A stretch of DNA of 36,338 nucleotides from Clostridia bacterium. GTDB taxonomy: Bacteria > Bacillota > Clostridia > Oscillospirales > CAG-272. The number at the start of each line of letters is the position of its first letter. The stretch's first letter is position 1. The translations under genes and the position numbers were made by a program. The stretch lies in the NCBI GenBank assembly GCA_017453305.1, contig JAFTKJ010000002.1, positions 1 to 36,338 on the forward strand, in the 5' to 3' direction. A model generated the notes under the pieces. It made no database searches, was not told where the DNA came from, and was given only the letters and a program-made list of their open reading frames with translations. Positions 1-33,726 of this stretch are shown here, piece after piece.

Positions 1-15
1 GAAAGGTGGTAAAAT

Positions 16-435
16 ATGGACTTTAAGATTCTCATTCGAAGATTTTTCGCATTTGTAATTGACTGGAATATTATGTTCGGTGTTGCCATGGTGCTTATGT
101 TCTACGGCCCCGGAAGCAACCCTGAATACCTACTTTATCCAAGTATCAAGATGTTAAGCTCTGCGGGATTCCTTATGGGGCTTGCATGGTTACCTCTATA
201 TTGTTTATTCAAGGATTGCTTGTTTGGACGAAGAAGTCTGGGTAAACTTATCTTTGGACTGACAATTCAAAATTCCGAAACCGGAGAAAAAGCAGCTTTT
301 GGCAGTTTGATATTGCGAAACGTTACATATGTAATCGTGCAGATTGAAGGCATTGTGGTTTTAGTTAACAAAGGCAAACGCTTAGGTGATTCCATCGCTA
401 AAACACAGGTTGTAAGAAAAACAAAAAATACATAG
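16..435 (+). CDS. RDD-family membrane protein (first visible cassette gene)
   Basis: A 139-residue membrane protein of the RDD family. The typical pattern is visible: an N-terminal RRFFAFVIDW helix start, a second hydrophobic stretch around residues 45-65, the GRRSLGKLIFGL loop near residues 71-82, and RLGDSIAKT near the C-terminus. RDD proteins are small multi-pass proteins of mostly unknown function; some have been linked to ion transport. The ATG follows GAAAGGTGG with good spacing, so the gene is complete, but its promoter lies left of the window. Its stop codon TAG is also the last base triplet of the ACATAG motif that opens the first spacer repeat, so the spacer abuts or slightly overlaps the gene. 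AT-rich like the rest of the array. A cargo gene by position; its role is not evident. Confidence 0.8.
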   Translation: MDFKILIRRFFAFVIDWNIMFGVAMVLMFYGPGSNPEYLLYPSIKMLSSAGFLMGLAWLPLYCLFKDCLFGRRSLGKLIFGLTIQNSETGEKAAFGSLILRNVTYVIVQIEGIVVLVNKGKRLGDSIAKTQVVRKTKNT

Positions 436-573
436 GCTTCGTTTGCAAGCATGGCGTTGCGCCCCGAGAGATCGCATTGGGTGCAACGCCTTTTTTATTT
501 TTCACGATTTTTTGGTCTGCAGACAGATTCGAACCGGCGAAATGTTGAAATGTTTACAAAGTTGTGGTATAAT
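430..573 (+). repeat. Cassette spacer repeat R1 (terminator + palindrome + promoter)
   Basis: First of six near-identical spacers. Parts in order: ACATAG at 430-435; a 12-bp stem hairpin (GGCGTTGCGCCC / GGGTGCAACGCC, one G-U pair) at 453-490 followed by TTTTTTATTTTT, a Rho-independent terminator; the palindrome GTCTGCAGAC at 515-524; then GATTCGAACCGG; then a sigma-A promoter with -35 TTGAAA (545-550), 17-bp spacer and extended -10 TGGTATAAT (-10 at 568-573). It ends the RDD gene and starts the next gene. Loop subtype CGAGAG. Confidence 0.92.
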
Positions 574-604
574 ATCACTAATGATATGAAAGGAGGGATT
601 TTCT

Positions 605-1243
605 TTGTTTTATTGTTTATCAAGTCATCCATCAAATCGTTATAAATATGTACTTATGGATTATAGTTTTTTCAGAATCAATACTTGCCAATGTAAAACC
701 TGCGGTCGAGAAGTTAAACAATGCCAACTGGAATATTGGCCCCCAAAAATGATTTTGGAGGGTGGGAAAAGATATCCCGATTGTTTATCTGTTTCGATTC
801 CTTTTGATGACAAGTGTGGCTTGATTGTAAGCGAAAAAGTACTTGAAGCATTCAAAACGGAAAACATCTCCGGATATATAGCCGAACCGATAGAGATCAA
901 CGATGATAAAGTAAATGATGAAGTTGCAGCCGAAAAACCTCAATATTACTATCTGTATGTGAATGGAATCATTTCCTTGGATTATGGTGCTATGCATTAC
1001 AAGAAAAAGAATTATTGCTCCGATTGCGGCTCATATAACTGGAGCCGTCAGAAAATTGGAGAATCCGTTCTTGACCATTCATCTTGGAATCAATGTGATA
1101 TTTGCAAATTGATTGATTATCCGAATAGATTTATCTGTACCCAAAAAGTGATAGATGTGATAAAGAAACACAACTTAAAGGGCTTTGTAAAAGGCAAAGA
1201 GTCAGATGTTTTTTTACCATTAAAAGCAGAAAAAGTATGTTAA
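605..1243 (+). CDS. Cysteine-pair (zinc-ribbon-like) protein, immunity-protein-like
   Basis: A 212-residue soluble protein with CxxC pairs at residues 30/33, 138/141 and 164/167, probably metal-binding. The middle part (around residues 70-97, GLIVSEKVLEAFKTENISGY) resembles immunity proteins of the double-CXXCG (SitI6-like) and Imm11-like groups, where a ligand-type phrase 'l.vSekv..al....i.G' is common; this is recognition from memory, not a search. The chosen start is TTG at 605, seven bases after a strong GGAGGG site; an ATG at 656 is possible but has no site in front. Transcribed from the R1 promoter. Function as an immunity protein is an inference supported by the neighbouring Imm26-like and DMP19-like genes. 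Confidence 0.6.
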   Translation: MFYCLSSHPSNRYKYVLMDYSFFRINTCQCKTCGREVKQCQLEYWPPKMILEGGKRYPDCLSVSIPFDDKCGLIVSEKVLEAFKTENISGYIAEPIEINDDKVNDEVAAEKPQYYYLYVNGIISLDYGAMHYKKKNYCSDCGSYNWSRQKIGESVLDHSSWNQCDICKLIDYPNRFICTQKVIDVIKKHNLKGFVKGKESDVFLPLKAEKVC

Positions 1244-1264
1244 TTATGTAACCCGGTCAACTTT

Positions 1265-1409
1265 ACATAGGACTCGTTTGCAAGCATGGCGTTGCGCCCC
1301 GAGAGATCGCATTGGGTGCAACGCCTTTTTTATTTTTCACGATTTTTTGGTCTGTAGACAGATTCGAACCGGCGAAACGGTTGAAATGTTTACAAATTTG
1401 TGATATAAT
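1265..1409 (+). repeat. Cassette spacer repeat R2
   Basis: Same structure as R1. ACATAG at 1265-1270, terminator hairpin 1288-1325 with a T-rich tail, palindrome in a variant form (GTCTGTAGAC, one base changed), the GATTCGAACCGG block, -35 TTGAAA at 1381-1386, 17-bp spacing, -10 TATAAT at 1404-1409. The conserved sequence carries on past the -10 into the 5' leader and ribosome binding site (AGAGAAAGAGAAAGGCGGTG), which it shares only with R3. Confidence 0.92.
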
Positions 1410-1434
1410 AGAGAAAGAGAAAGGCGGTGATCAC

Positions 1435-2451
1435 ATGATAATAAAGTTACCCAAACGCCCCGATTCTATTTTTAATAATGAACATCTTTTTAACTATCTT
1501 TTAGATTTGGAAAGAAAACAGAAACTGGACATTCTTCCTGCGAATCTAATGGTTTATTATGTTTTCAGCACATTTGTAAATGAGGTTTTAAACGGCGGTT
1601 TGGTGCAATATTTTACAAACTCAAGCAAGCTGACATATATTCATTTGCGGCAGAGCGCTGCCCTCTTAAACCACGAGGCTTTCACGCCGTATGTTTTGGG
1701 AGTTTGTGATTATGTTGATTCAATTCTTCCTCTTGATTTTGACAACGAAATTGATCAAGCAATCGTTGAACAATTAGATGTACTTGATAACCAATTCTAT
1801 GAGCTTGATGAAAAGTTCGATGCATTAAAGATTACCGAGAAATTCTACAAGAGCAATTATAGCATAGAAAAAATTGATATTCCGAAAATCAAGGAGATCG
1901 AAAGCAGTTCATGCAAATATTTTATTGCTCCAAAAGATCTGATCTGCAGAGATATCAAAGAATCAATCGAGAGCTTTTTAAAAGTCCTTGCCGATTTTTC
2001 CGAACAACGCTGGACTATCGAATTGTGGAATTTTTTTGACACCTATCGCATAACTGCTTCTACATACGGTAAGGCGATTGATTTAGAAACTGTTATGTTA
2101 CATTGGGCTGATTCAACCTATTCGTTTTCGAATAGCTCAAACGACGGATATAATGATCGAATAAAATTGTCATCCACTTTTGAGAAAATTAGTATTATGA
2201 GTGGTACAGACGGCATATCAGAATACGCCGTGCGAATTTCCTCGAGTGGATTCGAGAAAAACGAATTCAAAATGAAGCATCAATTTGTTATGGCAGGCAG
2301 AGCATACGACCAAGAAATTAGTACAATTTCGGTCGGCGATATGTCACATAAAAAAGATCCCGAAAAGTATTACATTATAAAAAATTATTTGGAATCTCAC
2401 TACAAAGAATACAAAAATATAGAAACAGTATTTGAGTCTGGCGAATATTGA
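1435..2451 (+). CDS. DMP19/DUF4375-type protein with an extra C-terminal domain
   Basis: A 338-residue soluble protein. The N-terminal half carries the hallmark of the DMP19 (DUF4375) family: a helix ending in FVNEVLNGGLVQYFTNSS, followed by a helical segment on loss or ageing of residues typical of this fold (residues about 30-130). DMP19 is known as a DNA-mimic protein in Neisseria, and family members recur in immunity gene clusters. The C-terminal half (about residues 155-338) is not recognised. The ATG at 1435 follows AAAGGCGGTGA; the longer frame upstream runs through the R2 terminator and promoter and cannot be the real start. Driven by the R2 promoter. A role as immunity or regulatory protein is inferred. 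Confidence 0.68.
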   Translation: MIIKLPKRPDSIFNNEHLFNYLLDLERKQKLDILPANLMVYYVFSTFVNEVLNGGLVQYFTNSSKLTYIHLRQSAALLNHEAFTPYVLGVCDYVDSILPLDFDNEIDQAIVEQLDVLDNQFYELDEKFDALKITEKFYKSNYSIEKIDIPKIKEIESSSCKYFIAPKDLICRDIKESIESFLKVLADFSEQRWTIELWNFFDTYRITASTYGKAIDLETVMLHWADSTYSFSNSSNDGYNDRIKLSSTFEKISIMSGTDGISEYAVRISSSGFEKNEFKMKHQFVMAGRAYDQEISTISVGDMSHKKDPEKYYIIKNYLESHYKEYKNIETVFESGEY

Positions 2452-2456
2452 TTTTT

Positions 2457-2600
2457 ACATAGGACTCGTTACAAGTATGGCGTTGCGCCCCGAGAGATCG
2501 CATTGGGTGCAACGCCTTTTTTATTTTTCACGATTTTTTGGTCTGCAGACAGATTCGAACCGGCGAAACGGTTGAAATGTTTACAAAATTGTGGTATAAT
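2457..2600 (+). repeat. Cassette spacer repeat R3
   Basis: ACATAG at 2457-2462, terminator hairpin 2479-2516 with a T tail, palindrome GTCTGCAGAC, GATTCGAACCGG block, -35 TTGAAA 2572-2577, 17-bp spacing, extended -10 TATAAT 2595-2600. Continues into the same leader and ribosome binding site as R2, so these two units are the closest relatives. Confidence 0.92.
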
Positions 2601-2625
2601 AGAGAAAGAGAAAGGCGGTGTCACA

Positions 2626-3561
2626 ATGGAAAATTACAAAGTTAAAATTATCGATTTCATCGAGGGAAGAACTGCCCCTGAACCTTTTTACACATGGTTT
2701 GAATCTAATCCGCAGGTGTTGGATTGGTTACAGAGCATGATTCCTCAAGACAAAACCATTCAAGATGCAGTTGAAGTGAAAATTGATTATTTCTTGAAGG
2801 ATCTGCCAACATCAAAGCAAGAAGAAGTATATTCGACTTATCAAAGCTTGTGCGAAACTACCGATTTGGATCGTGCAAAAAAACTCGTGGATCTGCTGAC
2901 TGAATTGGATTCCCGTACAGTACAGTTTACCGATCTCATGAACCTTTTGCTAAACAATTACAAAACCGTATTGAATAACCCAAGCAAATATAAATCTTCG
3001 TATGTGAAAGAAATGTGTATAGCTGTTAAGAAGTTTTTTGAAGATAAGTTTACGACTGTTCAAGAAGTCCCATATGATGTCAAGACCGTTTATTCTCACA
3101 ATAAAACAAATAGTAAGCTGTGGACGTACGTTAATGTACAATCATGGCTATACCAACTTATGACAGAGCTTTGTCCTGATGATACTATTGAAAAAGATAA
3201 TACACTTTACGAAAAAGCATCGTTTATGATGGACGTTTGTCCCGAATATATCGAAGGTCACGAAATTGATGAGGCCGGCATCATTGAAGCAATCATCGAG
3301 CAAGTGCCTGAATCTCTGCCGAAAGCAAAAAGAAAAAAACAAATCAAAGAGCTTATCAAGAAAGAATTTCATATTGTTGGAACAAAATATCCTCGTTGGG
3401 TTCAAGGCGGAGAGTGGCCTGTTTCCAAAAGCGGCAAGCCCATGCGCTTCGTAGAGCAAAAACGAAAAAAAGGAAAAGAATATCAAGATATGCTTTATAC
3501 TATATATGTATTTGAAGATGTAGATACATTCGAAAAAAGGATTATTGAACAATTTACATAA
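2626..3561 (+). CDS. Uncharacterised soluble cassette protein
   Basis: A 311-residue protein that I do not recognise. It is mostly helical and charged, has no signal peptide or membrane segment, and is tryptophan-rich at the N-terminus (FYTWFESNP, VLDWLQSM). It ends in a basic, likely separate domain (KRKKQIKELIKKEF, then a WVQGGEWP loop at about residues 259-266). The ATG at 2626 follows AAAGGCGGTG; the upstream extension crosses the R3 terminator. Its setting between immunity-like genes, each with its own copy of the same promoter, makes an immunity or defence role plausible, but nothing in the protein itself proves it. Confidence 0.65.
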   Translation: MENYKVKIIDFIEGRTAPEPFYTWFESNPQVLDWLQSMIPQDKTIQDAVEVKIDYFLKDLPTSKQEEVYSTYQSLCETTDLDRAKKLVDLLTELDSRTVQFTDLMNLLLNNYKTVLNNPSKYKSSYVKEMCIAVKKFFEDKFTTVQEVPYDVKTVYSHNKTNSKLWTYVNVQSWLYQLMTELCPDDTIEKDNTLYEKASFMMDVCPEYIEGHEIDEAGIIEAIIEQVPESLPKAKRKKQIKELIKKEFHIVGTKYPRWVQGGEWPVSKSGKPMRFVEQKRKKGKEYQDMLYTIYVFEDVDTFEKRIIEQFT

Positions 3562-3562
3562 T

Positions 3563-3663
3563 ACATAGGACTCGTTTGCAAGCATGGCGTTGCGCCCCGA
3601 GAGATCGCATTGGGTGCAACGCCTTTTTTTATTTTTCACGATTTTTTGGTCTGCAGACAGATT
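3563..3663 (+). repeat. Cassette spacer repeat R4, terminator half only
   Basis: Contains ACATAG (3563-3568), the terminator hairpin (3586-3623, tail of seven T) and the palindrome GTCTGCAGAC (3649-3658). Identity to the other units stops at CAGATT (3663). The promoter half (GATTCGAACCGG onward) is missing and is replaced by the BlaI-regulated promoter. This shows that the spacer is built of two separable halves. Confidence 0.9.
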
Positions 3664-3689
3664 TACACCGACAAATTTTATAAAACCTA

Positions 3690-3735
3690 TTGACAAACGC
3701 AGACTATTGTGATAGTATATACTATAGCAATAGTC
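3690..3735 (+). promoter_or_regulatory. BlaI-type promoter with paired operator dyads
   Basis: -35 TTGACA at 3690-3695, 17-bp spacing, -10 TAGTAT at 3713-3718. Overlapping the -10 is a 34-bp near-perfect inverted repeat (3702-3735; half-sites GACTATTGTGATAGTAT and ATACTATAGCAATAGTC, two mismatched pairs). Each half is itself a dyad ACTAT-N4-ATAGT, so two repressor dimers could bind side by side. Placement over the -10 and start site suits autorepression by the BlaI-like protein encoded just downstream. Confidence 0.8.
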
Positions 3736-3749
3736 TGGAGGCGGCCGAT

Positions 3750-4103
3750 ATGCAAAAATTATTTGACAGCGAATTAAAGGTTATGGAGCTGATTTGGGCA
3801 AATGAACCCATCAGTGCGAAAGAGTTAAGTCTTCTTGCTGATAAGGAATTCGGATGGAATAAGAACACCACGTACACCGTTATTAAGAAAATTGAGGCAA
3901 AAGGTTACATCAAGCGTACCGATCCCGGTTTTATATGTGGTTCGCTGATTTCCAAAAAAGACGTTTGCGAAAGCGAAACACAGACCTTGATTGACAAGCT
4001 CTTTGGCGGTTCAAGAAAAGCACTTTTTTCGGCTTTGATAGAAGATGAAAAACTGACAAAGGATGAAATCGAAGAGCTTCGAAAGTTGATCAACAAGAGG
4101 TGA
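3750..4103 (+). CDS. BlaI/MecI-family transcriptional repressor
   Basis: A 117-residue winged-helix repressor of the BlaI/MecI (Penicillinase_R) family. Visible features are the N-terminal ELKVMELIWANEPISAKEL helix, the recognition region around NKNTTYTVIKKIEAKGYIKR (residues about 38-57), and an acidic C-terminal dimerisation helix. It should bind the dyads at 3702-3735 and be cleaved when the neighbouring M56 protease senses its signal. Start ATG 3750 follows GGAGG by eight bases; upstream in-frame codons lie inside the operator. Four bases separate it from the blaR1-like gene, so it is co-transcribed. It is the only cassette in this array with its own regulated promoter. Confidence 0.9.
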   Translation: MQKLFDSELKVMELIWANEPISAKELSLLADKEFGWNKNTTYTVIKKIEAKGYIKRTDPGFICGSLISKKDVCESETQTLIDKLFGGSRKALFSALIEDEKLTKDEIEELRKLINKR

Positions 4104-4107
4104 TAAC

Positions 4108-5022
4108 ATGCTTGGGGAAATCTTTTATTGGATATTCAATATGAGTATCGCCGCAACGATTTGTACGGTTCCCGTATTGCTTCTCCGATTATGCAAAAAA
4201 ATCCCGCGTCGAATTTTCATTTGGCTGTGGCTTGTACCATTTGTTCGAATGTGTGTTCCCGTTGGAATTTCAAGCAAATACGGCATTATGACTTTGATAT
4301 CCAGGTTTACAACCAAAACCGTTACCATCGTTCAAATCGACAATGATTCGGCGTTGACTATGATGAATTTCACCATGGGAGCAAACCGTTATTTCCCTAT
4401 CACTTATAAGGTCAATCTTCTTGAGGATCTTTTCAATGTTTCTTCCGTAATATGGCTTATCGTAGCCTTGGCAGGAATCCTCACTATGACGGTCATTTAT
4501 TTCGTAACGCTGAGCGAAGTAAGGGATGGGCAAAAATTAAGGGATAATATTTATATTTCAGATAAGATCAAAACACCTGCGGTTTATGGAATTATCAAAC
4601 CGAAAATCTTCCTTCCAAGCGAATACGATGCAAATAGATTGGATTTCATATTAATGCATGAAAAAGCCCACATAAAACGAAAAGATAATTTGATTCGTCT
4701 GTTTTCATTTATTGTTGTGTGTATTCATTGGTTCAATCCGTTTGCGTGGCTTTTGCTAAAAATGCTTTATTCGGATATTGAACTCGCTTGCGACGAAGTT
4801 GTACTGTCAAAATGCAACGAAGCGGAACGAAAAGAGTATGCATATACGCTACTCTCCACAGCAGAAAAAACAAACGTTTTTGCCGCATCCTTCGGGGGCT
4901 CAAAAATCAGAATCAGAATCGAAAATATCTTGTCTTTCAAAAAAATTTCCTTTTTCTCTGTTACTGCCTTCTCCGCGCTTATGATAGCAATCTGTTACGT
5001 TCTTCTCACCAATGCATCCTGA
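4108..5022 (+). CDS. BlaR1-like M56 membrane metallopeptidase (short form)
   Basis: A 304-residue membrane protein of peptidase family M56. The zinc motif HEKAH is at residues 184-188 and the third ligand region ELACDE near 223-228, between hydrophobic segments at the N-terminus, about 113-134, about 196-215 and the C-terminus (about 281-300). In BlaR1/MecR1 the protease cleaves BlaI after an extracellular sensor binds a beta-lactam. This protein ends soon after the last membrane segment and has no penicillin-binding sensor domain, so it must sense something else or use a partner. The neighbouring membrane protein is a candidate partner or target. ATG follows GAGGTGATAAC. Confidence 0.88.
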   Translation: MLGEIFYWIFNMSIAATICTVPVLLLRLCKKIPRRIFIWLWLVPFVRMCVPVGISSKYGIMTLISRFTTKTVTIVQIDNDSALTMMNFTMGANRYFPITYKVNLLEDLFNVSSVIWLIVALAGILTMTVIYFVTLSEVRDGQKLRDNIYISDKIKTPAVYGIIKPKIFLPSEYDANRLDFILMHEKAHIKRKDNLIRLFSFIVVCIHWFNPFAWLLLKMLYSDIELACDEVVLSKCNEAERKEYAYTLLSTAEKTNVFAASFGGSKIRIRIENILSFKKISFFSVTAFSALMIAICYVLLTNAS

Positions 5023-5034
5023 AAGGAGTACATT

Positions 5035-6000
5035 ATGGAAAACAAAAAGTTCAGAAATTATTATCTGTTATCACTCCTCGGCGTATTATTCGCATCCTGT
5101 TACCCAATTTATATGGGAATAACCGTCATTGTTGATATGATTCGGTACGGTACGGTATATGCTGAGAATTATCCGAAATATATCATTCCGTACACACCGA
5201 TCGCACTCGCTCTCCTGGTCGGTGTTGCACTGATACCCGTCGCACTCAAATACTTTAAGAAATACGCATTACTGTTTGGAACTGTGATTTCCACGGTATT
5301 ATTTTTTGCTTTTGAATTCACTTTGGAAAGGACTGTAACTGTCACTCGCACCGTAACCGGTATTTTCTCCACATTGGAAGATTGGCAGATGTATATGTGC
5401 TATATTCCGCCAAACAGCTTTGAAGAAAGAACTTGGACAGAAGTTGATGTTTTGATGGGAGAATACAGCCCTGCGTTCAAGCTTCATTTTTACATAATTT
5501 CTATTGTCCTCATTATATCAATTTTGAATTGCTTTTACGGATTTGCAAAGATGATACATACAGGTGATAAAAGCCGCTGCAAATCTCTTGCCATTCAATC
5601 AATCGCAAGTGGCGCTTTTCTTGGAATGTGCATTTGGGCTTGTTTTACAGCCTTTTATAGAAACGGTGACATTAAGGTTTCTGCCCTTTCCGCAATATTG
5701 ATGAGCGTATTTTTTGTTTTGTTCGGTGTAACGGTTGGTATATACGTTGCTTCCTTTACGCTAAACAAGAAGCCACTGCTGTCCGTGTGGTTACCGAGTA
5801 TATCTGCGGTGATTGTTACTTTGGTTATGTACATTGGCGAAATGATCTTACTGAGCGGACATCTTTATCGCTTTGGCAATGGGTTTTTTTTCGCAGGAAT
5901 CCCCGGGATTATACTTGCGCCGGTGGATATTATTATCATCATTGCTTCAGGAGTTGTTGCGGCAATTATCGCAAATACAGTCCGCAATAGGAACACATAA
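5035..6000 (+). CDS. Multi-pass membrane protein of the BlaI/BlaR operon
   Basis: A 321-residue integral membrane protein with about eight hydrophobic segments. An extracellular-looking loop lies between segments three and four (around residues 115-145). No family is recognised. It starts 13 bases after the M56 gene behind GAAAGGAGT and has no promoter of its own, so it is part of the BlaI-controlled operon and is probably the output of that sensor: a resistance, immunity or transport function in response to a cell-envelope signal. This is inferred from context only. The operon ends in spacer R5. Confidence 0.7.
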   Translation: MENKKFRNYYLLSLLGVLFASCYPIYMGITVIVDMIRYGTVYAENYPKYIIPYTPIALALLVGVALIPVALKYFKKYALLFGTVISTVLFFAFEFTLERTVTVTRTVTGIFSTLEDWQMYMCYIPPNSFEERTWTEVDVLMGEYSPAFKLHFYIISIVLIISILNCFYGFAKMIHTGDKSRCKSLAIQSIASGAFLGMCIWACFTAFYRNGDIKVSALSAILMSVFFVLFGVTVGIYVASFTLNKKPLLSVWLPSISAVIVTLVMYIGEMILLSGHLYRFGNGFFFAGIPGIILAPVDIIIIIASGVVAAIIANTVRNRNT

Positions 6001-6137
6001 ATTCATTTCCAACCATGGCGTTGCGCCCCGGAAGATCGCATTGGGTGCAACGCCTTTTTATTTTTCACGATTTTTTGGTCTGCAGACAGATTCGAACCGG
6101 CGAAAAGGTTGAAATGTTTACAAAGTTGTGGTATAAT
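5995..6137 (+). repeat. Cassette spacer repeat R5
   Basis: Begins with ACATAA (5995-6000, coinciding with the stop codon of the gene before). Terminator hairpin 6017-6054, palindrome GTCTGCAGAC, GATTCGAACCGG block, -35 TTGAAA 6109-6114, 17-bp spacing, extended -10 TATAAT 6132-6137. Belongs to the loop subtype CGGAAG and has GCGAAAAGG before the -35, both shared with R6 but not with R1-R4. Confidence 0.92.
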
Positions 6138-6175
6138 GAAGGCGCAATAAAAAACACTTTCAAAGGAGGGTAGCA

Positions 6176-6685
6176 ATGAACAACATTTTATATGAGGCAA
6201 CTTCAAAATTTGATTTTACAATTCTCGATATACCGACAATTATAATAATTTTTATGTTGATCTTTCCGTTGATTATAAAAAAATCTTATGAAGGTAAAGA
6301 TGTAAAATTGAATATAAAATTTGTCAAACTCTTTTGCCTTGCCGGTATTTTATTTGTAGCCTTTTGCTCTACGGTCGTTTTAATTGCCCAGTTTAACATG
6401 TATAATAAAACTGTTGGTGCATATAGTCGCGGCGAATATCAAATAGTCGAAGGTTACGTTGAAAATTTCGACCCAATGCCTTATGAGGGACACGCAAATG
6501 AAACTTTTGAAATTAACGGCGTCAAATTCTCTTACTCTGACTACAATATTCACCCCGGATATAATAACACTAAATCACATGGTGGTGTAATAAAAGAAAA
6601 TGGTCAACACTTAAAAATCGGATATGTTTACTTGAACGAAACATACGGAAATATTATCGTTTACATAGAACAGCTACCAGAATGA
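6176..6685 (+). CDS. Small membrane-anchored cassette protein
   Basis: A 169-residue protein, not assigned to a family. Two hydrophobic segments (about residues 19-36 and 52-74) are followed by a C-terminal domain of about 90 residues rich in glycine and aromatic residues (EGYVENFDPMPYEGH, then FSYSDY and NNTKSHGGVI), probably a small beta-domain outside the membrane. ATG 6176 follows AAAGGAGGG. Transcribed alone from the R5 promoter. A membrane-tethered immunity protein would fit the array, but this is inference. Confidence 0.65.
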   Translation: MNNILYEATSKFDFTILDIPTIIIIFMLIFPLIIKKSYEGKDVKLNIKFVKLFCLAGILFVAFCSTVVLIAQFNMYNKTVGAYSRGEYQIVEGYVENFDPMPYEGHANETFEINGVKFSYSDYNIHPGYNNTKSHGGVIKENGQHLKIGYVYLNETYGNIIVYIEQLPE

Positions 6686-6688
6686 ATT

Positions 6689-6831
6689 ACATAGACTTCG
6701 TTACAAGCATGGCGTTGCGCCCCGGAAGATCGCATTGGGTGCAACGCCTTTTTATTTTTCACGATTTTTTGGTCTGCAGACAGATTCGAACCGGCGAAAA
6801 GGTTGAAATGTTTACAAAGCTATGGTATAAT
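6689..6831 (+). repeat. Cassette spacer repeat R6
   Basis: ACATAG at 6689-6694, terminator hairpin 6711-6748, palindrome GTCTGCAGAC, GATTCGAACCGG block, -35 TTGAAA 6803-6808, 17-bp spacing, -10 TATAAT 6826-6831 preceded by TATGG. Same subtype as R5. Confidence 0.92.
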
Positions 6832-6864
6832 ATGGATAGTATAAAATGTGAAAGGAGCGAAGAT

Positions 6865-7980
6865 ATGTTTGAACTTACAAATGAGCAAAGAAAGTGCTTC
6901 GCACTTCCGCCCGTTCTCAATAGTTGGAGGAAAGTTGAAGTTAAAAAAAGTCCACATGATGATTTCTTCACATACGCATATTTAGATGGAAAAAAGATAG
7001 TTAAAGTTATAATGGTGTCCGATATTCCGGGGCACGATAGATACCGTGAATTTGGTGTGGACCAAATTCTTTCAGACGATGGCACAAAAATTCTTCCTAA
7101 GACCAACAAAGGAACCCCACAAAATTTCACATCCTCAAATCTTATAGCGAAAACGTCTATCGGTATGGCGCTTTTATTTGACTCCGGTTATGTTGATGTG
7201 GTTAATATGACCGCCGAGCAAAGTTTTTATCGCTCTTGTTACAACTCTGAGAAGCTTGAAACGCTTAACGATTTTTCAAAATGGGTAGACGACTGGTGCT
7301 ACAACACAGGCGAAAAAGAGCTTTCAGAGATTATTGATTTTTCAAAACGCACAAAAATCCATCAAAAATTTAAGGAAGGTGACTTTTTTAAATTCCGCAT
7401 AAATCGTAGCTTGTTTGGATATGGACGAATCCTTGTTGACTATGCGAAAATGAGAAAAGAAGGGATTCCCTTTTGGGATGGCTTTATGGGAAAGCCTCTT
7501 TGCGTAGCGGTCTATCATTTAGTTACCGAAGATGCAAACGTAAATCCTGCGTTTCTTGTTAATCTTAAAATGATACCGTCACAAATGATTATGGACAATA
7601 TCTTCTATTATGGTGAATGTGTGATTATAGGTAATATTCCAATTTCTCCCGATGAAGATAATTTTACAATTCATTACGGAAGAAGCATGGATGCCCGCAC
7701 AGCAAATTATCTTTATTATCAGTGTGGAAAAACCCATGTTGCCCTTGAGGGCGAAAAAGAATTGTATTTACATGAAGATAAAATATTTGGCGGTTTCAGA
7801 TATAAAGACATTGGATGGAGTTTGAATATTCAACTTCCTATTTTGCTTGAATGCATCAAGAAGGATTCAAATGAACCGTATTGGGATATGATACCTGCTT
7901 GGAGAGCAAATCGAGACTTGAGAAATCCAAAATTCAAGGAAGAACTAAAGCAAATCAAGAAGCAAATGGGCGTTCAATAA
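6865..7980 (+). CDS. Imm26-like immunity protein with an N-terminal extension
   Basis: A 371-residue soluble protein. Residues about 168-290 match the Imm26 pattern as I know it: KEGDFFKFRI, then FGYGRILVDY, then a long hydrophobic strand pair ending in a 'W/Y-G-x-x-x-x-I-G-N-I-P' phrase (YGECVIIGNIPI). Imm26 proteins neutralise polymorphic toxins delivered by competitors. The first 165 residues and the last 80 are not recognised. Start ATG 6865 follows AAAGGAGCG; the in-frame extension upstream would run through the R6 terminator and promoter and is rejected. This is the last gene of the first array: after its stop comes a lone ACATAG (7985-7990) and then unrelated sequence. Confidence 0.68.
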   Translation: MFELTNEQRKCFALPPVLNSWRKVEVKKSPHDDFFTYAYLDGKKIVKVIMVSDIPGHDRYREFGVDQILSDDGTKILPKTNKGTPQNFTSSNLIAKTSIGMALLFDSGYVDVVNMTAEQSFYRSCYNSEKLETLNDFSKWVDDWCYNTGEKELSEIIDFSKRTKIHQKFKEGDFFKFRINRSLFGYGRILVDYAKMRKEGIPFWDGFMGKPLCVAVYHLVTEDANVNPAFLVNLKMIPSQMIMDNIFYYGECVIIGNIPISPDEDNFTIHYGRSMDARTANYLYYQCGKTHVALEGEKELYLHEDKIFGGFRYKDIGWSLNIQLPILLECIKKDSNEPYWDMIPAWRANRDLRNPKFKEELKQIKKQMGVQ

Positions 7981-7984
7981 AATT

Positions 7985-7990
7985 ACATAG
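7985..7990 (+). other. Lone ACATAG: right boundary of the first array
   Basis: The hexamer that opens the spacer repeats (ACATAG in five units, ACATAA in R5) occurs here after the last cassette gene but is not followed by terminator, palindrome or promoter. It marks the edge between AT-rich cassettes and GC-richer chromosome. The 230 bases from here to the next gene hold only the weak extended -10 promoter TGGTATAAT (-10 at 8121-8126) with no convincing -35. Confidence 0.5.
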
Positions 7991-9456: not shown

Positions 9457-9535
9457 GTTCTGTCTGCACCGCCGCTTCTTCCTCCCCAAAAACGTATATC
9501 CAAATAATTATTACCATACAAAAGGAGATCAGACG

Positions 9536-10420
9536 ATGTTTGGTTTTTTGAAAAATTTGAAAAAGAAGCCCTCCGTCGACTTTGACGCCGTGCTGGAATC
9601 TGTCCTGCGGAACGAGATATCCGTGGTTGCATGCCCCGCCTCCGCAAACGGCTCCCCCTGCCGCAGTAAATTCGGCGGCAAGCCCGCGCTCCCCGCAGGC
9701 TTTGAGTGGCCCAGATACGAGGCAGCGGACGAAGAAGGCGAAACAGCGGCAAGACCGCTCTCCTTCCTCTGTCAGATCAATCTGAGAGAGGTCAGCGCCT
9801 ACGATACGGAGGATCTGCTCCCCAAAACCGGCTTGCTCCTTTTCTTTTACGAGCAGGAGTCAGGCTGTTGGGGCTTTGATCCCGAGGACGACGGTTGCTC
9901 TCGCGTGTTCTACTTTGAGGACGTTGACAAGCTTTCCGCAACGGCACTCCCCTTGGATCTGAAGGAGGAATACGTTGTCAAGGAATATGATCTGGCATTC
10001 TCGTCAAAACCCTCCTATCCGAGCTACGAGGAGTTGGAATATCACTCGGACGCAATTTGCGATTGGGACGATTACGACGAAGCGGTGGAAAACAAGGGCT
10101 ACGAAATCAACAACGAGCGCCACAAGTTGCTTGGATATGCGGATCCCATACAGAGCGAAATGCTGACCGAGTGCGAAAGAACCATGCGCGGCTTGTACTG
10201 CGGTAATGCGGAAAGCTATCGCAAAACCTCCAAGGAGGAAGCCCGCGAGATCGAAGAAGCGGCACGCGATTGGACACTGCTGTTTCAGATGGCTTCGATT
10301 GAGGACGAGGACTTTGAATTGATGTTTGGCGACCTTGGTGACCTTTACTTTTATATCCGCAAGCAGGATCTCAAGGAGCGCCGCTTTGATAAGGCGTGGC
10401 TCGTTTTGCAGTGCGGATAA
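9536..10420 (+). CDS. DUF1963 (YwqG-like) protein
   Basis: A 294-residue soluble, acidic protein of the DUF1963/YwqG family. The family pattern is visible: SKFGGKPALPAGFEWP near residues 45-60, then PLSFLCQINL, then a long region ending in a D-x-G-x-x-YFYI strand (GDLGDLYFYI) near the C-terminus. Family function is not established. Start ATG 9536 follows AAAAGGAGATC. It ends at a strong convergent terminator (10465-10515). Close behind the UroD-like gene, so possibly the same transcript. Confidence 0.82.
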   Translation: MFGFLKNLKKKPSVDFDAVLESVLRNEISVVACPASANGSPCRSKFGGKPALPAGFEWPRYEAADEEGETAARPLSFLCQINLREVSAYDTEDLLPKTGLLLFFYEQESGCWGFDPEDDGCSRVFYFEDVDKLSATALPLDLKEEYVVKEYDLAFSSKPSYPSYEELEYHSDAICDWDDYDEAVENKGYEINNERHKLLGYADPIQSEMLTECERTMRGLYCGNAESYRKTSKEEAREIEEAARDWTLLFQMASIEDEDFELMFGDLGDLYFYIRKQDLKERRFDKAWLVLQCG

Positions 10421-10464
10421 TGCCAAACTGTTCTTCTATAGCTGTAGTATAAATAAAAAAATTG

Positions 10465-10515
10465 AAAGAGACAGTCTCAAATGCGTTTTGCACTTGAGAC
10501 TGTCTCTTTTTAGAC
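10465..10515. terminator. Convergent bidirectional terminator
   Basis: A 16-bp perfect stem (AAAGAGACAGTCTCAA and its complement, 10465-10509) with three further pairs and a short T-rich loop. A-rich sequence lies on the left and TTTTTAG on the right, so it works in both directions between the DUF1963 gene and the minus-strand lipoprotein gene. Confidence 0.88.
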
Positions 10516-10525
10516 TTTGATTCCA

Positions 10526-12325
10526 TTACGGAATATTTACGGTGCAGATCTTATAGACGTTGGTGGAACGGATTCCCTCGGAGCTTGCTACGTACATCAC
10601 CAGCTGAAATTCGCCCGTCACGCCCTCGGGAAGCGTCAAAGTCACGTTGCCGCAGTTCAGCACAAACGCCTCACTCGCAAAGGTGACCGTGGGTGTTTGA
10701 ATTCCATCAAAGTGGATCAAGCCCGATGCGTCCTGCAGGGCAAATGCCAGATGATACGCCTCGTCTGCTTCAAACAACTGCAGATCGTTCACCCGGGCGG
10801 TGGCGGCGGTGATACTCACGCTGCCCTCCCCGATCTGATGAGCAACCACAACGTCGGCAAGATCTCCAAACGAGATCAGCGGTGTTTCCTGTTCATCAGG
10901 CCTTACGCTTGGATCGCGTTCAATGGCAGGAGCGCTTGCCCATTCATCGATCTTCACCATCAGATTTTGGAAGTTCTCTCCCTCAATGGCAACGGCTTTG
11001 TAGCAATCCTCATTGGTGCGTACGCCGTAACCGTTCCAGCGGAAGCCTTCGTTGACCGCTTCGGCAATCTGCTTGGCGGAAATCAAGTTTTCCTTGATCA
11101 CATCCAAAGGCTCCACGCATTCCAATTTCCAATCCTGAACGGTCTTCAGAAGTGCCTGAATTGCCTCTTCCTCACTTTGTGCCTGAACCGAAAGAAACAG
11201 ATCTGCCTCGGTACCGACAACCGACTCCCATGTGTGAACGTCTCGCAGCGTAACGCCGTTGGCATCGGTCTCGCTATGCTTTACAACAGTTCCGTCCGCA
11301 AGGATCAGAGCCGCCGCCTCGCCCGTTTTGATGCCGCGATAGTTGGAAAATGCGCCCAGCGTAAGAACAAAGGCGTATTCGGTGCTTTCCTCGGCGTTGA
11401 TGGTGATGTTCAAAATATCTGCCGTGTGCGCACGGTCGGAAATGGAAACTCCGCTGATGCCGCGCACGTCCTCGATGTTCTGCGTAGCGCCCATGCAAAG
11501 TGCATCGGTCACCACAACGAACCAAATATCAAACGGATAACCGAGCGCCTCGTTTTCCACGTTGTAGCGAAGCTCGGCGCACTCCCATCGCCCGTTGTTA
11601 TTGATGGCACTGAAGCCGCGGTAGGACTGCTTACTTGCGTCCGTTCCGCTCGGCATTTGATACATATACTCGTAGCGCTTGTTCTTGACGTAGACGGCGC
11701 GTGTTTGATAACCGTCGTGATTCTTTCGCAGGATCTCGTACTGCTCCTCGCCGTCCTCCGTGCGCGTGCGATAGCACACAAAGGTGAAAACGTCCTCACG
11801 CGCAATGAGCAGGTCACTGTTCTCCTCCACGTGGAGCAGCAGATCGCCGCCCGTGCTGGTAACATCCTTTGCCCAAGTATCGACCACGCGAACGGACTCC
11901 TTCATGTATTGAATATATTCGGCACATCTTTCGGCAGTCTCTACCGATTGACGCACGGTTTCATCAAATTGCGTAAAGTGTCTCGACCAGGTTTGGATAT
12001 CATCCTCGGTGTAGGTAACGTCGGATAGCGGCACGGTGGCGGAAAGTGCTTGCAGGATTGATCTGCCATCGGCAGCCATTGCCTTCATGTCCTCCTCGGC
12101 ACCTGCAAAAATGCCGTCATTGCCATCGATCAACCGATCCGCCATGCGCTCGTTTGCCAGGGCAAGCTTGGCACCTGCCAAGCCCGTGACGGCGTTTGCG
12201 GCGTTCGGGTTGCTCGGGGCATTTGGATTGCTCGGGTCATTTGGATTGTTCGGGTCTGCGCATCCGACCAAACATACGGAAAGCAACAGGACAACGGCCA
12301 GAATCCATACGATTGTTTTTTTCAT
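10526..12325 (-). CDS. Large uncharacterised lipoprotein
   Basis: A 599-residue secreted lipoprotein. The N-terminus has KKT, a hydrophobic helix and the lipobox LVGC (cysteine at about residue 22). A low-complexity tether of Pro-Asn-Ser/Ala repeats follows (about residues 23-43), coded by an imperfect 18-bp tandem repeat. The mature part is acidic and shows no recognised domain; a helical region (about 60-160) precedes beta-rich sequence. Start ATG follows AGGAGAAAAGCT. It lies 50 bases after gtrA on the same strand, so it is probably at the end of the flavin reductase-cysS-gtrA run. Ends at the convergent terminator. Role unknown; extracytoplasmic binding or surface function is likely. Confidence 0.8.
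   Translation of the reverse strand: MKKTIVWILAVVLLLSVCLVGCADPNNPNDPSNPNAPSNPNAANAVTGLAGAKLALANERMADRLIDGNDGIFAGAEEDMKAMAADGRSILQALSATVPLSDVTYTEDDIQTWSRHFTQFDETVRQSVETAERCAEYIQYMKESVRVVDTWAKDVTSTGGDLLLHVEENSDLLIAREDVFTFVCYRTRTEDGEEQYEILRKNHDGYQTRAVYVKNKRYEYMYQMPSGTDASKQSYRGFSAINNNGRWECAELRYNVENEALGYPFDIWFVVVTDALCMGATQNIEDVRGISGVSISDRAHTADILNITINAEESTEYAFVLTLGAFSNYRGIKTGEAAALILADGTVVKHSETDANGVTLRDVHTWESVVGTEADLFLSVQAQSEEEAIQALLKTVQDWKLECVEPLDVIKENLISAKQIAEAVNEGFRWNGYGVRTNEDCYKAVAIEGENFQNLMVKIDEWASAPAIERDPSVRPDEQETPLISFGDLADVVVAHQIGEGSVSITAATARVNDLQLFEADEAYHLAFALQDASGLIHFDGIQTPTVTFASEAFVLNCGNVTLTLPEGVTGEFQLVMYVASSEGIRSTNVYKICTVNIP
12204..12257 (-). repeat. 18-bp tandem repeat coding the lipoprotein tether
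   Basis: About three imperfect copies of an 18-bp unit (plus-strand form TTGGATTGCTCGGGTCAT) in frame within the lipoprotein gene. Each adds the peptide D/A-P-S-N-P-N. Copy number could vary by slippage and change tether length without a frameshift. Confidence 0.7.
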
Positions 12326-12374
12326 AGCTTTTCTCCTTTTTGTTTTTTAAGCTGGGGGAAAAGATTCCAATTCT

Positions 12375-12893
12375 TTATTGGTTTTCTTTTTTGAAAACGA
12401 ACAGCTTACTGATGATATAATTGCAAACGATGACAACGACTGCCGCCACAAGCTTGGAAAGGATCTCGCACAAATTCAAGGTTCTGCCAAGAACCTCGGT
12501 GGCAGTCCAGGTGGGCAGGAGCACGCCAAGCCCCAAGGTTAAACCAAAGGTAATGACGTAATCCAAGCCGAGGGTGACCACACGTCCGCCCGCGAAGGTG
12601 ACCAGCTGCTTTGACATGCGGGTGGAACGGTCTGCCTCGGTAAAGACCCATGCGCGATTGGTGAAAAACGCAAACAGCACCGCACAGACCCATTGGATGA
12701 TCTGCGCCGCCGTATAGAGCACGACGTAACGCGTGCCCGTAACCTCGTCGACAGGGATCTCAAAGATCGCACGACCACCAAGCAACACGGCGTAATAGAC
12801 GCCCCAGCCGACAAAGGTGGTCAAAACGCCGAACACAAGGTACAACAGCACCTCACGGTGCTTGGAAAGCAATTCCCTTATCCGAGCGATCAT
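12375..12893 (-). CDS. GtrA-like membrane protein
   Basis: A 172-residue protein of the GtrA family with four membrane segments (about residues 15-37, 58-82, 100-125, 140-165). Typical phrases are YLVFGVLTTFVGWGVYY at the N-terminus, FFTNRAWVF in the middle and CNYIISKLFVF at the end. GtrA proteins are thought to move lipid-linked sugars across the membrane for cell-surface glycosylation. Its ATG overlaps the cysS stop codon (ATGA), so translation is coupled to cysS. That is an unusual pairing, with no glycosyltransferase next to it here. Confidence 0.9.
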   Translation of the reverse strand: MIARIRELLSKHREVLLYLVFGVLTTFVGWGVYYAVLLGGRAIFEIPVDEVTGTRYVVLYTAAQIIQWVCAVLFAFFTNRAWVFTEADRSTRMSKQLVTFAGGRVVTLGLDYVITFGLTLGLGVLLPTWTATEVLGRTLNLCEILSKLVAAVVVIVCNYIISKLFVFKKENQ

Positions 12894-14332
12894 TCCTTGC
12901 CCTCAATGCGGAAGGTGGTGCCCTCCTTGGAATCGATCAGCGTCACGCCCTTTTCCAGGAGGTATGCGCGGATACGGTCTGCCTCGGCGTAGTTCTTTGC
13001 CGCCTTGGCTTGCTTGCGTTCCTCGATCAGCTTTTCGATCTCGGCGACGAAGGGATCGTCCGAGACGGGCGCTTTTGCCGCCTCGACGTTCTTTTCCTCA
13101 TTCAGCTTTGCGGCATGCTCCAAAAGTCCCAGGCAGAGCACGCGGTCAAAGTCGGCAAGAAGTGCGCGCTTGGTGGCATCGTTGGTCTTTGCCTTGAGCA
13201 CGTCGTAAATTGCCGTAACAGCCAGGGAGGTGTTCAGGTCGTTATCCAAGGACTTGACAAAGCCTGCCTTTTGCTCCTCGAATACAGTGGGATCGATCTC
13301 GCCCTCCTCCTTGAGGGAGGCAATGCGTGCGATCAGCTTGTTGTACGCCACCTTTGCGTTCTCCATGTTCTCCCAGGAGAACACGAGCGACTTACGGTAG
13401 TGCGATTGCAGGCAGAAGAAGCGGTAGACCATGGGATCAAAGCCCTTTTCGGTCAAAAGGGACACGGTGAGGAACTCGCCCTTGGACTTACTCATCTTGC
13501 CCGAATTGGTATTCAGGTGCAGAACGTGGAACCAATAGTTGCACCACTTGTGTCCAAGGAGCGCCTCGGATTGCGCGATCTCGTTGGTGTGGTGGGGAAA
13601 GGCGTTATCAATACCACCGCAGTGAATGTCCAAGCGCTCGCCCAGGTGCTTCATGCTGATGCAGGAGCACTCGATATGCCAGCCGGGGTAACCGATGCCC
13701 CAGGGGCTGTTCCACTTCAATTCCTGATCGTCAAACTTGGACTTGGTGAACCACAAAACGAAATCCGCCTTGTTGCGCTTGTTGCCGTCAGCCTCTACGC
13801 CCTCGCGCACGCCGACCTCCAGGTCCTCCTCCTCAAAGTTGTGGAATACGTAGTACTGCTTCAGCTTGGAGGTGTCAAAATAAATATTTCCGCCTGCCTC
13901 GTACGCGTATCCCTTTTCGAGCAAGGACTCAATGACCTTGATAAACTCGTCAATGCAGGAGGTTGCAGGCTCCACCACCTCGGGGCGGCGGATGTTGAGC
14001 GCGTTGCAATCCTCAAAGAATTTTTCGGTGTAGAATTGCGCGATCTCCATAACGGTCTTCTTTTCGCGCTTGGCGCCCTTGAGCATTTTGTCCTCGCCCG
14101 TGTCGGCATCAGAGGTCAGATGTCCTACGTCAGTGATATTCATCACGCGCGTAACGTCATATCCCAGATAGCGCAGATAGCGGTCGAGAATATCCTCCAT
14201 GATATAGGTGCGCAAATTTCCAATATGTGCAAAGTGGTAGACCGTAGGACCGCAGGTGTACATGCTGACCTTGCCCGCCTCGTTGGGAATAAACTCTTCT
14301 TTGGTTCTGCTGAGTGAATTGTAAAGTTGCAT
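12890..14332 (-). CDS. cysS: Cysteine-tRNA ligase
   Basis: A full-length (480-residue) class I cysteinyl-tRNA synthetase, which charges tRNA-Cys in the cytoplasm. Visible signatures: zinc ligand Cys27 in YTCGPTVY, the HIGH-like HIGN at residues 36-39, the second zinc/catalytic region GWHIECSCISMKHLG, the HCGGIDNAFPHHTNE block, and KMSKS at 279-283, followed by the DALR and C-terminal domains. Start ATG follows AAAAGGAGATACACG. It is 53 bases downstream of the flavin reductase gene and overlaps gtrA. No T-box leader can be seen in that short gap, so control must come from further upstream. Confidence 0.97.
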   Translation of the reverse strand: MQLYNSLSRTKEEFIPNEAGKVSMYTCGPTVYHFAHIGNLRTYIMEDILDRYLRYLGYDVTRVMNITDVGHLTSDADTGEDKMLKGAKREKKTVMEIAQFYTEKFFEDCNALNIRRPEVVEPATSCIDEFIKVIESLLEKGYAYEAGGNIYFDTSKLKQYYVFHNFEEEDLEVGVREGVEADGNKRNKADFVLWFTKSKFDDQELKWNSPWGIGYPGWHIECSCISMKHLGERLDIHCGGIDNAFPHHTNEIAQSEALLGHKWCNYWFHVLHLNTNSGKMSKSKGEFLTVSLLTEKGFDPMVYRFFCLQSHYRKSLVFSWENMENAKVAYNKLIARIASLKEEGEIDPTVFEEQKAGFVKSLDNDLNTSLAVTAIYDVLKAKTNDATKRALLADFDRVLCLGLLEHAAKLNEEKNVEAAKAPVSDDPFVAEIEKLIEERKQAKAAKNYAEADRIRAYLLEKGVTLIDSKEGTTFRIEGKE

Positions 14333-32286: not shown

Positions 32287-32315
32287 ATTATAGCACAACT
32301 TAACCTTCTTTACAA
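32287..32315 (-). promoter_or_regulatory. Promoter of the iron-sulfur protein operon
   Basis: Minus strand: -35 TTGTAA (32310-32315), 17-bp spacing, -10 TATAAT (32287-32292) with TGC extension. Divergent from the duplicated AraC promoter 43 bases away. Confidence 0.8.
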
Positions 32316-32327
32316 TAACAAAAACAA

Positions 32328-32492
32328 ACAAATTTTCACTTTTCGAAACAAAGGTGCTTGAAAAAATCAAAAATAAGTGCTATCATATAAAAAAGACCGA
32401 TTACAAGCAGGAGGCGCAAATCATGTCGAACAGCATACCGATTTTAACGCAAGTTGAATTTTTTTCGTGCATCCTATCAACCAAGCAGAGCA
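32328..32492 (+). repeat. Duplicated AraC promoter and 5' end, left copy
   Basis: Left copy of the AraC upstream and start region at 34467-34630. The first 38 bases (32328-32365) are identical to 34467-34504. The middle (leader, start, codons 2-12) is diverged but alignable. The last block (32456-32492) is identical to 34595-34630 except for one extra T. The promoter -35 TTGAAA (32358-32363), 17 bp, -10 TATCAT (32381-32386) is retained. Confidence 0.85.
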
Positions 32493-32497
32493 GATGA
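32423..32497 (+). pseudogene. Frameshifted 5' fragment of an AraC-family gene
   Basis: ATG 32423 begins MSNSIPILTQVEFF, matching MPSEIPILIQVEFF of the intact AraC gene at 34562. A T7 run where the intact gene has T6 shifts the frame and brings a stop at 32495-32497. The shifted frame continues the AraC-like peptide FRASYQPSRA and then joins unrelated cassette sequence. A relic of the duplication, or possibly a short leader peptide. Confidence 0.7.
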
Positions 32498-32924
32498 TGA
32501 GTACCCATATTCTTTCGAATACGAAGATGATGTTCTTGTGAGCTGGAACGGTCATCGGCACTTCGGTTATAGACTCTTTTATTACTCATATACCATAGAT
32601 AATCCATTATTCATATATGACCGCCATGAGGTGTATTTTCGTGAGGATTATAATTATTTAGAGGATGTATTTGAGATTGCAAACACATTGGATGAGATCG
32701 TGTGGCAAGATATGTTTGGTCCCGAACAACCCAAAATTAATTTTGTGAATCCGACTAAAATCATCGTATCTTCAAAATTGCACCCTCGAATTAAAACATA
32801 CCTTGTGTTGGAATGTGTTGACAACCAGTGGTATATGTCGTTACCACATTACCCCTACTCAGTTTATACGCCATCAGATGAATTTCTGAAAATATTATTT
32901 GATAATAGGATTATTTATCCTTAA
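32454..32924 (+). CDS. Hybrid cassette ORF lacking its own start
   Basis: A 156-residue frame. The first 13 residues (TTG start, NFFRASYQPSRA) come from the AraC 5' end. From about residue 14 it is an unrelated AT-rich, aromatic-rich soluble protein (tyrosine and phenylalanine throughout; LVLECVDNQWYMSLP near residue 120). No ATG or GTG with a ribosome site lies in the unrelated part, so the original 5' end seems to have been lost or replaced when the array was joined to the AraC copy. Whether it is translated from TTG 32454, or by slippage on the T run, cannot be told. Family not recognised. Confidence 0.5.
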   Translation: MNFFRASYQPSRADDEYPYSFEYEDDVLVSWNGHRHFGYRLFYYSYTIDNPLFIYDRHEVYFREDYNYLEDVFEIANTLDEIVWQDMFGPEQPKINFVNPTKIIVSSKLHPRIKTYLVLECVDNQWYMSLPHYPYSVYTPSDEFLKILFDNRIIYP

Positions 32925-32931
32925 ACTTATG

Positions 32932-33001
32932 TTCAGCCGCACTTTCGGGTGCGGCTGTTTTCATCTAAGTACTTGCAAATTCCACCAAAGTATGCTATAC
33001 T
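32932..33001 (+). repeat. Second-array spacer U1 (terminator + promoter)
   Basis: Hairpin AGCCGCAC-TTTCGG-GTGCGGCT at 32935-32956 with tail GTTTTC, then AAGTACTTGCAAATTC and a promoter: -35 TTGCAA (32973-32978), 17-bp spacing, extended -10 TGCTATACT (-10 at 32996-33001). Unrelated in sequence to R1-R6 but the same design. Confidence 0.88.
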
Positions 33002-33076: not shown

Positions 33077-33091
33077 CGAAAGGATTAACTT

Positions 33092-33622: not shown

Positions 33623-33643
33623 GTCACACTTATCGTTGATTTT

Positions 33644-33715: not shown

Positions 33716-33726
33716 TATGTAAAAGG

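Follow-up and report, generated by a model that had tools for sequence, protein, structure and literature searches.

The window analyzed here is a stretch of 36,338 nucleotides forming the first 36 kb of contig C6 (JAFTKJ010000002.1) in the assembly of a Clostridia bacterium (GCA_017453305.1; Oscillospirales, CAG-272; 119 contigs, 80% complete, 5.4% contaminated). It opens with a gene cassette array in which seven unrelated units, all on the plus strand between positions 16 and 7980, are set apart by six copies of one spacer. The low GC content of this part (37.6% in 1–7990 versus 53.9% in 8200–32300) and our reading of the sequence bear out an earlier account of the DNA (the preliminary description), which had reported seven AT-rich plus-strand units and six spacer copies. 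Read against related loci, the window spacer and its array are apparently a shortened form of a wider system, in which cassettes stand behind tRNA genes and may be captured in an integron-like manner. Because the window begins at a contig end, the left side of the array is beyond reading; the tRNA anchor, the longer spacer (with the element A, module D, and leader copy treated below), and the fact of shortening all lie outside the window and were for that reason missed in the preliminary description. The units, spacers, and right edge of the array are these:

16..435, + strand: cassette gene 1, RDD-family membrane protein (PF06271, 2e-9); its stop is the TAG of TACATAG
428..573, + strand: spacer 1, with the 5′ part of element A, the predicted terminator hairpin, the C1 segment, and the predicted promoter TTGAAA (545)-17-TATAAT (568)
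605..1243, + strand: cassette gene 2, Zn-ribbon-like protein (Gmx_para_CXXCG/DUF2310 below cut-off)
1263..1409, + strand: spacer 2, predicted promoter at 1381/1404
1435..2451, + strand: cassette gene 3, DMP19-like (Pfam, 5e-8)
2455..2600, + strand: spacer 3, predicted promoter at 2572/2595
2626..3561, + strand: cassette gene 4, no family over cut-off (Imm6 weak, below cut-off)
3561..3663, + strand: spacer 4, terminator part and C1 only, without promoter
3750..6000, + strand: cassette 5, BlaI/MecI repressor, M56 (BlaR1-type) peptidase, and membrane protein (Pfam)
5995..6137, + strand: spacer 5, predicted promoter at 6109/6132
6176..6685, + strand: cassette gene 6, membrane protein without family (Pfam scan)
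6687..6831, + strand: spacer 6, predicted promoter at 6803/6826
6865..7980, + strand: cassette gene 7, Imm26-domain protein (Pfam, 1e-16)
7983..7990, + strand: right edge of the array, a bare TTACATAG (the first bases of an element A), followed by non-array DNA

The families over the Pfam cut-off in these units are RDD, DMP19, BlaI, M56, and Imm26, and three of the seven units have none. The gene to the right of the array is present in just one other of 35 genomes of the genus, so the empty site is unreadable for this array.

The six spacers are 92%–99% identical to one another over aligned letters, and each starts at the preceding stop codon or a few tens of nucleotides from it. In one copy (1262–1340), a hairpin (GGCGTTGCGCCC...GGGTGCAACGCC) with a T run has a folding energy of −26.2 kcal/mol (z = −3.48; 0/200 shuffles as good), and TTGAAA-17-TATAAT could be read by eye in five of the six copies. 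The preliminary description had every spacer carry both a terminator and a promoter; this holds for the terminator alone (six of six), because copy 4 (3561–3663) has no promoter, and the BlaI/M56 operon behind that copy appears, by eye, to have its own promoter upstream of 3750. The associated proposal, that the module ends one gene and starts the next, appears correct as far as predicted terminators and promoters can indicate such activity. At full length the spacer was found in this genome alone, and parts of it match 12 of the 35 genus genomes (this one included); related loci identify its first ~50 nucleotides (nt) as the 5′ part of the longer element A.

Element A and the tRNA Anchor

Element A is about 93 nt long and is made up, in order, of TACATAGG..TCGTTTGCAAGCATGGCGTT, the first arm of a stem, CCGG.AGA..CGG, the second arm, CCCATCATCGCCAAGGGG, and a small hairpin. 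A covariance model built from 24 copies detected it at three levels: in 13 of the 35 genus genomes, in 82 of 246 from a sample of the family (38 of 71 genera), and in 29 of 394 from a sample of the order (seven families). Among 110 copies, 12 of the 16 base pairs have changes on both sides and 90.9% of cells are paired; on none of five measures does any of 500 shuffles score as high. Because the alignment had been fitted to the model, it is biased to the structure; control structures slid along it still fall to 32%–51% paired. We placed 128 copies in 63 loci (the window included; 40 loci were hand-picked from the list of family-sample matches) relative to their genes. The start of A lies −7 to +20 nt from the end of a same-strand open reading frame (ORF) in 96 of these copies, at 21–100 nt in 15, and further away in 11; the other six have no such ORF. 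A promoter (TTGAAA-16..18-TATAAT, with up to one mismatch in the second part) is predicted before 50 of the 96 A-coupled genes versus none after one shuffle each. Its pairing and its position thus describe A as a folded, structure-conserved element following cassette genes, presumably as RNA or as single-stranded DNA.

Comparison of array heads places them behind one or the other of two tRNA genes. A same-strand tRNA is in view upstream of 44 arrays, and in every one of them the nearest is tRNA-Gln (25) or tRNA-Trp (19). The first set of loci supplied 35 of these (18 tRNA-Gln, 17 tRNA-Trp, and no other among 35). Once this rule had been drawn up, a later set of 20 hand-picked loci was added, of which 14 belong to six other families; nine have a same-strand tRNA upstream (seven tRNA-Gln and two tRNA-Trp), seven of the nine being from other families. 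The loci lacking a tRNA in view (28 in the first set and 11 in the later) all start at a contig end, with the exception of seven. As a candidate attachment site at the array head, judged from sequence layout, one of the two tRNAs stands at 44 of 44 arrays with a same-strand tRNA upstream, versus none in view in seven others.

The window array is probably the tRNA-Gln array of its genome, since the C1 segment present in all six window spacers is typical of stretches after tRNA-Gln (14 of 18) and not of those after tRNA-Trp (1 of 17); its place would be behind the tRNA-Gln of contig C37 in the same genome. Contig C37 ends 187 nt past this tRNA, contig C27 ends 215 nt past a tRNA-Trp, and contig C36, which starts inside a tRNA-Trp, carries a second array of this genome. 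Contigs ending a few hundred nucleotides past tRNA-Gln or tRNA-Trp, or inside arrays, were seen in this assembly (G000 C37, C27, C36, and C6) and in others (G006 C37, G020 C76, G024 C40, and G025 C160), and array content is therefore probably under-counted in short-read genomes.

These placements bear on the possibility that A, or the spacer, is a dispersed intergenic repeat, similar to miniature inverted-repeat transposable elements or repetitive extragenic palindromes, that lies between genes by chance. Spacers do contain many short palindromes, and the Rfam family Gut-1 (RF01706) is matched over its gathering score in spacers and in leaders, the stretches just behind the tRNA-Gln and tRNA-Trp genes (L010 at 78–154, L064, L059, and L060). 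However, each array that was read has its A copies on a single strand, mostly after gene stops and behind two tRNAs, and no genome listed has more than ten matches; this explanation, disfavored by strand, stop-codon, and tRNA placement alike, is extremely unlikely. The outcome that the preliminary description had named as refuting its own proposal, a scattered element unlinked to gene exchange, is thus absent. Since its matches fall inside leaders and spacers, Gut-1 may be filler of the spacers rather than an RNA gene in its own right.

Module D, Leader Copies, and Cassette Exchange

Full-length spacers contain a second module, D, at ~95–160 nt past the start of A. It exists in two classes (GCATCTAAATCGGACACAC or GGATCGATTTTG.A, each often present twice), and the class matches the tRNA at the head of the array in 22 of 22 typed tRNA-Gln arrays and 17 of 18 typed tRNA-Trp arrays. 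In the first set the agreement is 15 of 15 and 16 of 17, respectively (Fisher, 5.7e-8; three tRNA-Gln arrays untyped); in the later set it is seven of seven and one of one (one tRNA-Trp array untyped). Counted by spacer, the first set has 28 G to 0 W behind tRNA-Gln and 25 W to 1 G behind tRNA-Trp, with 11 untyped. A possible third class (GGGCATCTAAATTGTATTTACATATAAAATTT) was seen at L242 (980) and L247 (1225), where the tRNA is out of view.

After D, a copy of leader DNA can be located: 88 of the 128 spacers match the DNA following a tRNA-Gln or tRNA-Trp gene. In 59 of them a match starts within a range of −25 to +19 relative to the tRNA 3′ end, and in 55 it does so at −5 to +3, so that on comparison the copies tend to begin at the tRNA end; 42 of the 59 start 150–162 nt past the start of A. 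Nine of the 59 spacers match the leader of their own locus best (a tenth same-locus match, in L176, is an outlier at −20), and L045 finds its best leader on another contig of the same metagenome-assembled genome, a pattern that speaks for local events having recurred. The final 20 nt of the tRNA are repeated directly at downstream positions in nine of 65 regions, whereas one shuffled end per region gave 0 of 65; L163 and L165 have such a copy beyond the last D, as expected of an outer att site.

Other tRNA-end copies were noted at these loci. In L163, L165, L170, L173, L155, L243, and L246, stretches of ~140–250 nt after the tRNA or D have direct copies of the tRNA 3′ end on either side, as though the tRNA were an entry point for a small non-coding unit too. 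Inverted copies of the 3′ end follow the tRNA in L062 (at 33 nt) and L218 (at 35, 205, and 376 nt).

Single cassettes recur one at a time in other genomes, which agrees with the earlier view that the spacers bound cassettes. Five of the seven window units have DNA matches elsewhere at 79%–98% identity, four of them at 90%–98%: window 1–458 matches L156 (96.1%), 500–1310 L144 (95.9%), 1349–2501 L180 (90.2%), 6101–6733 L148 (98.0%; also 6077–6716 with L041, 94.4%), and 6802–7990 L040 (78.9%). The units at 2626–3561 and 3750–6000 have no relative among the matches listed. For the core gene cysS, identity to this genome is 72% in the source of L156 (G245), 77% in that of L180 (G258), and 76% in that of L148 (G050); the source of L144 (G220) gave no match in this comparison of four genomes. 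L041 and a contig from a genome of another family (G440:C12) have identical A positions. Cassette content varies between genomes, and the same gene order in all relatives, which had been named beforehand as contrary evidence, was absent.

Homology between shared cassettes starts at the C segment, at the promoter, or just before the gene, and it ends inside A. The Imm26 cassettes of L040 and L045 are 95.4% identical and change A stem type just past GGCGTT, and related genes in L152 and L154 keep A with a different D behind it; gene and A are thus separable from D and leader. These boundaries, together with the near identity of the window spacers, also favor an explanation with no dedicated enzyme, in which arrays arise by tandem duplication and by homologous recombination between conserved spacers (at C/promoter and A). 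That explanation leaves unexplained the anchoring at two tRNAs, the leader copies starting from the tRNA 3′ end, and the match of D class to tRNA; as an account of the whole system we consider it unlikely, while giving it real weight. Within the wider system, the window array itself looks to have been shaped mainly by homologous swapping, given that it has no D and no leader copy, that its spacers are nearly identical, and that its genes are closest to those of five different genomes.

A Proposed Route of Cassette Capture

The explanation we favor, with a probability of about 0.57, is an integron-like, tRNA-anchored capture of cassettes by a recombinase acting in trans, combined with homologous gene swapping. 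Typically, the full unit would comprise a leader (the tRNA terminator hairpin and palindromic filler), a C segment with promoter, one or more genes, A, and D. Entry would take place at the 3′ end of tRNA-Gln or tRNA-Trp by site-specific recombination between the tRNA end and the end of D, the class of D setting which tRNA is used. The putative recombinase would act in trans on the arrays, possibly through circular or single-stranded intermediates, and the arrays would presumably grow at the tRNA end. The leader would be repeated at each entry, so that the tRNA would keep its terminator while the genes would gain a terminator and promoter of their own. In a second process, homologous recombination at C/promoter and A would swap genes and leave D and leader behind. 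A bolder statement of the same idea is that promoter-bearing cassettes with a folded tail enter the CCA end of tRNA-Gln or tRNA-Trp on a capture platform distinct from integrons, with D picking the tRNA and a recombinase serving in trans across several Clostridia families; this we hold tentatively, at somewhat under even odds.

A number of observations weigh against capture of this kind. The array loci share ancestry and were hand-picked from longer lists, so the counts overstate independent events. Seven loci uncut by a contig end (L108, L148, L151, L156, L160, L167, and L237) have no tRNA in the fetched upstream stretch, the window itself has neither a D nor a tRNA in view, and 32 of the 128 A copies lie outside −7 to +20 nt of a same-strand ORF stop, as judged from a crude ORF list. 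L163, a tRNA-Trp array, has a D of the tRNA-Gln class. D is no closer to the tRNA 3′ end than shuffled D is (p = 0.23 for Gln, 0.45 for Trp), which limits identity at most junctions to CA to TGCCA; the notion of D as a degenerate tRNA 3′ end, suggested by eye, was dropped on this result. Among spacers with a leader match, 29 of 88 have it only at points deeper within the leader; when the best match alone is taken, the start is at −5 to +3 in 42, at +4 to +19 in two, and beyond in 44. The first A of an array is not closer to the consensus than the last (12 of 19, p = 0.36), so that array growth at the tRNA end, as judged by decay of A, is not supported.

The search for the enzyme belongs with these points. 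When 264 array ORFs were compared with three tyrosine recombinase queries and one serine recombinase query, the tyrosine queries gave no match, and a match was obtained in L151 only, which encodes one full serine recombinase and two ORFs with a recombinase but without a resolvase domain. Recombinase genes were found in one of 58 protein-scanned loci. The L151 ORFs lie in a row (9460–12976) upstream of the first A, and in two spacers of that locus the leader copy starts at A+81, ahead of any D. IntI (TIGR02249) over cut-off was found in none of 24 array genomes, and likewise in none of 14 control genomes, so that the result stands without a positive control. The attC motif of integrons has the order RYYYAAC ... 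GTTRRRY; this exact order is present in 0 of 128 A+D stretches. A tyrosine recombinase of ~334 aa in array genomes was taken for the housekeeping Xer and set aside; in two genomes it adjoins a gene that, recognized by eye, we take to be apolipoprotein N-acyltransferase-like. At genus loci mostly without A, no integrase was among the best 25 of 90 families downstream of tRNA-Gln and tRNA-Trp (65/74 ORFs). Plasmid and phage collections gave no match to one A+D stretch, and an 18-base pattern hit three IMG/VR contigs that look like chance matches. A search of the open-licence literature in PubMed Central, made partly with broad terms, found no account of arrays like these.

Leader copies that tend to begin at the tRNA end would also be expected if insertion were RNA mediated, that is, if read-through RNA were cut at the tRNA 3′ end and its gene and A were copied to DNA that re-enters behind the tRNA; A, as a conserved fold placed like a 3′ untranslated region, would suit such a route. 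Against it, the tRNA terminator is part of the units, which often carry a promoter as well; opposite-strand ORFs occur in several arrays other than that of the window (whose genes are all on one strand); and the 25 families listed for each of three scans include no reverse transcriptase. We regard RNA-mediated insertion as very improbable.

The cargo scan took in two sets of proteins, 82 and 98, for a total of 180 from 58 loci, after exclusion of two near-duplicates of L145 and adjustment of window starts; its ORFs were called crudely, with some flanking genes among them, and the families reported are the best 25 of 48 and 25 of 67. Among the families listed, the commonest are helix-turn-helix regulators (HTH_3, 12), sigma-70 region 2 (nine), and the 23S rRNA intervening-sequence protein (eight); Imm26 has three members in the first set, and most families have a single one. 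PADLOC, run on the array proteins, returned methyltransferases, many weak regulator matches, and GajA in L160, where a Gabija-type GajA (3e-240) and a GajB-like partial protein occupy 1127–4467, ahead of an A copy. Array cargo includes sigma factors, regulators, and restriction-modification, Gabija, and glycosidase genes.

With A in about one third of the sampled family genomes, contigs that often break at or in arrays, and cargo that is mostly unannotated, the arrays form a rarely seen reservoir of exchangeable genes, immunity and defense genes among them. If the proposal is true, the platform moves immunity, regulatory, and phage-defense genes across several uncultured Clostridia families. 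A and D offer a direct handle on the enzyme and on cargo, and the match between D and tRNA is a testable prediction.

A second, unrelated mini-array lies at 32328–34603 of the window, with ORFs split by another terminator-promoter spacer (CAGCCGCACTTTCGGGTGCGGCTG and TTGCAAATT..TATACTT). It is AT-rich (33.9% GC in 32300–34460) and flanked by two copies (78% identical over 137 nt) of the 5′ end of an AraC-type regulator gene.

Comparison with Known Systems

Integrons are the textbook route by which bacteria stockpile and shuffle single genes, and gut Clostridia appear to do integron-like work with other parts, namely a tRNA anchor and a promoter before many cassettes. The palindromic filler of some leaders and spacers matches the Rfam family Gut-1, whereas element A itself has no Rfam match in the loci searched.

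Membership of a known class, whether as integrons or clusters of attC sites lacking integron-integrases (CALINs), or as the recombinase-associated acquired interbacterial defense (rAID) arrays of Bacteroidales moved to Clostridia, would suit the tandem co-oriented short genes, the conserved spacers, and the immunity-like cargo (Imm26 and DMP19). It is made highly improbable by the results given above for IntI, the attC order, and tyrosine recombinases. One published account describes integrons and CALINs as cassettes in tandem whose functions are largely unknown, each gene being followed closely, past its stop codon, by a folded element; the series starts at a fixed anchor, its cassettes are common to many taxa, and the recombinase may be locally absent (PMC8618304). 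The arrays resemble them in their tandem cassettes, folded tail, sharing across taxa, and apparent lack of a local recombinase, and the tRNA at the head is a candidate for the fixed anchor. They differ in having no IntI over cut-off and no exact attC R-box order, and on these two findings membership is rejected; further, the anchor is a tRNA gene where integrons have attI, promoters precede 50 of 96 genes, and a separate D module is matched to the tRNA.

rAID arrays have co-oriented short genes, conserved intergenic motifs, and immunity-type cargo, and their definition rests partly on a tyrosine recombinase (PMC12247911). The co-oriented short genes and immunity-type cargo are common to both, and A, as a conserved intergenic element, can be likened to the rAID motifs by description only. 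The differences lie in the tyrosine recombinase, which was not found here, the phylum, the tRNA anchor, and the wider cargo. The kinship with Bacteroidales defense arrays put forward in the preliminary description accordingly fails as membership: no such recombinase was found, the phylum is another, and the cargo extends beyond immunity genes.

Genomic islands and integrative and conjugative elements that integrate at tRNA genes insert at tRNA 3′ ends, as the cassettes described here may do, and the direct tRNA-end copies in nine of 65 regions are a possible further likeness. In contrast to such islands, the units here mostly hold one to a few genes without an integrase (264 ORFs, with L151 as the exception), and they use two tRNAs with matching end modules and form arrays, not one island.

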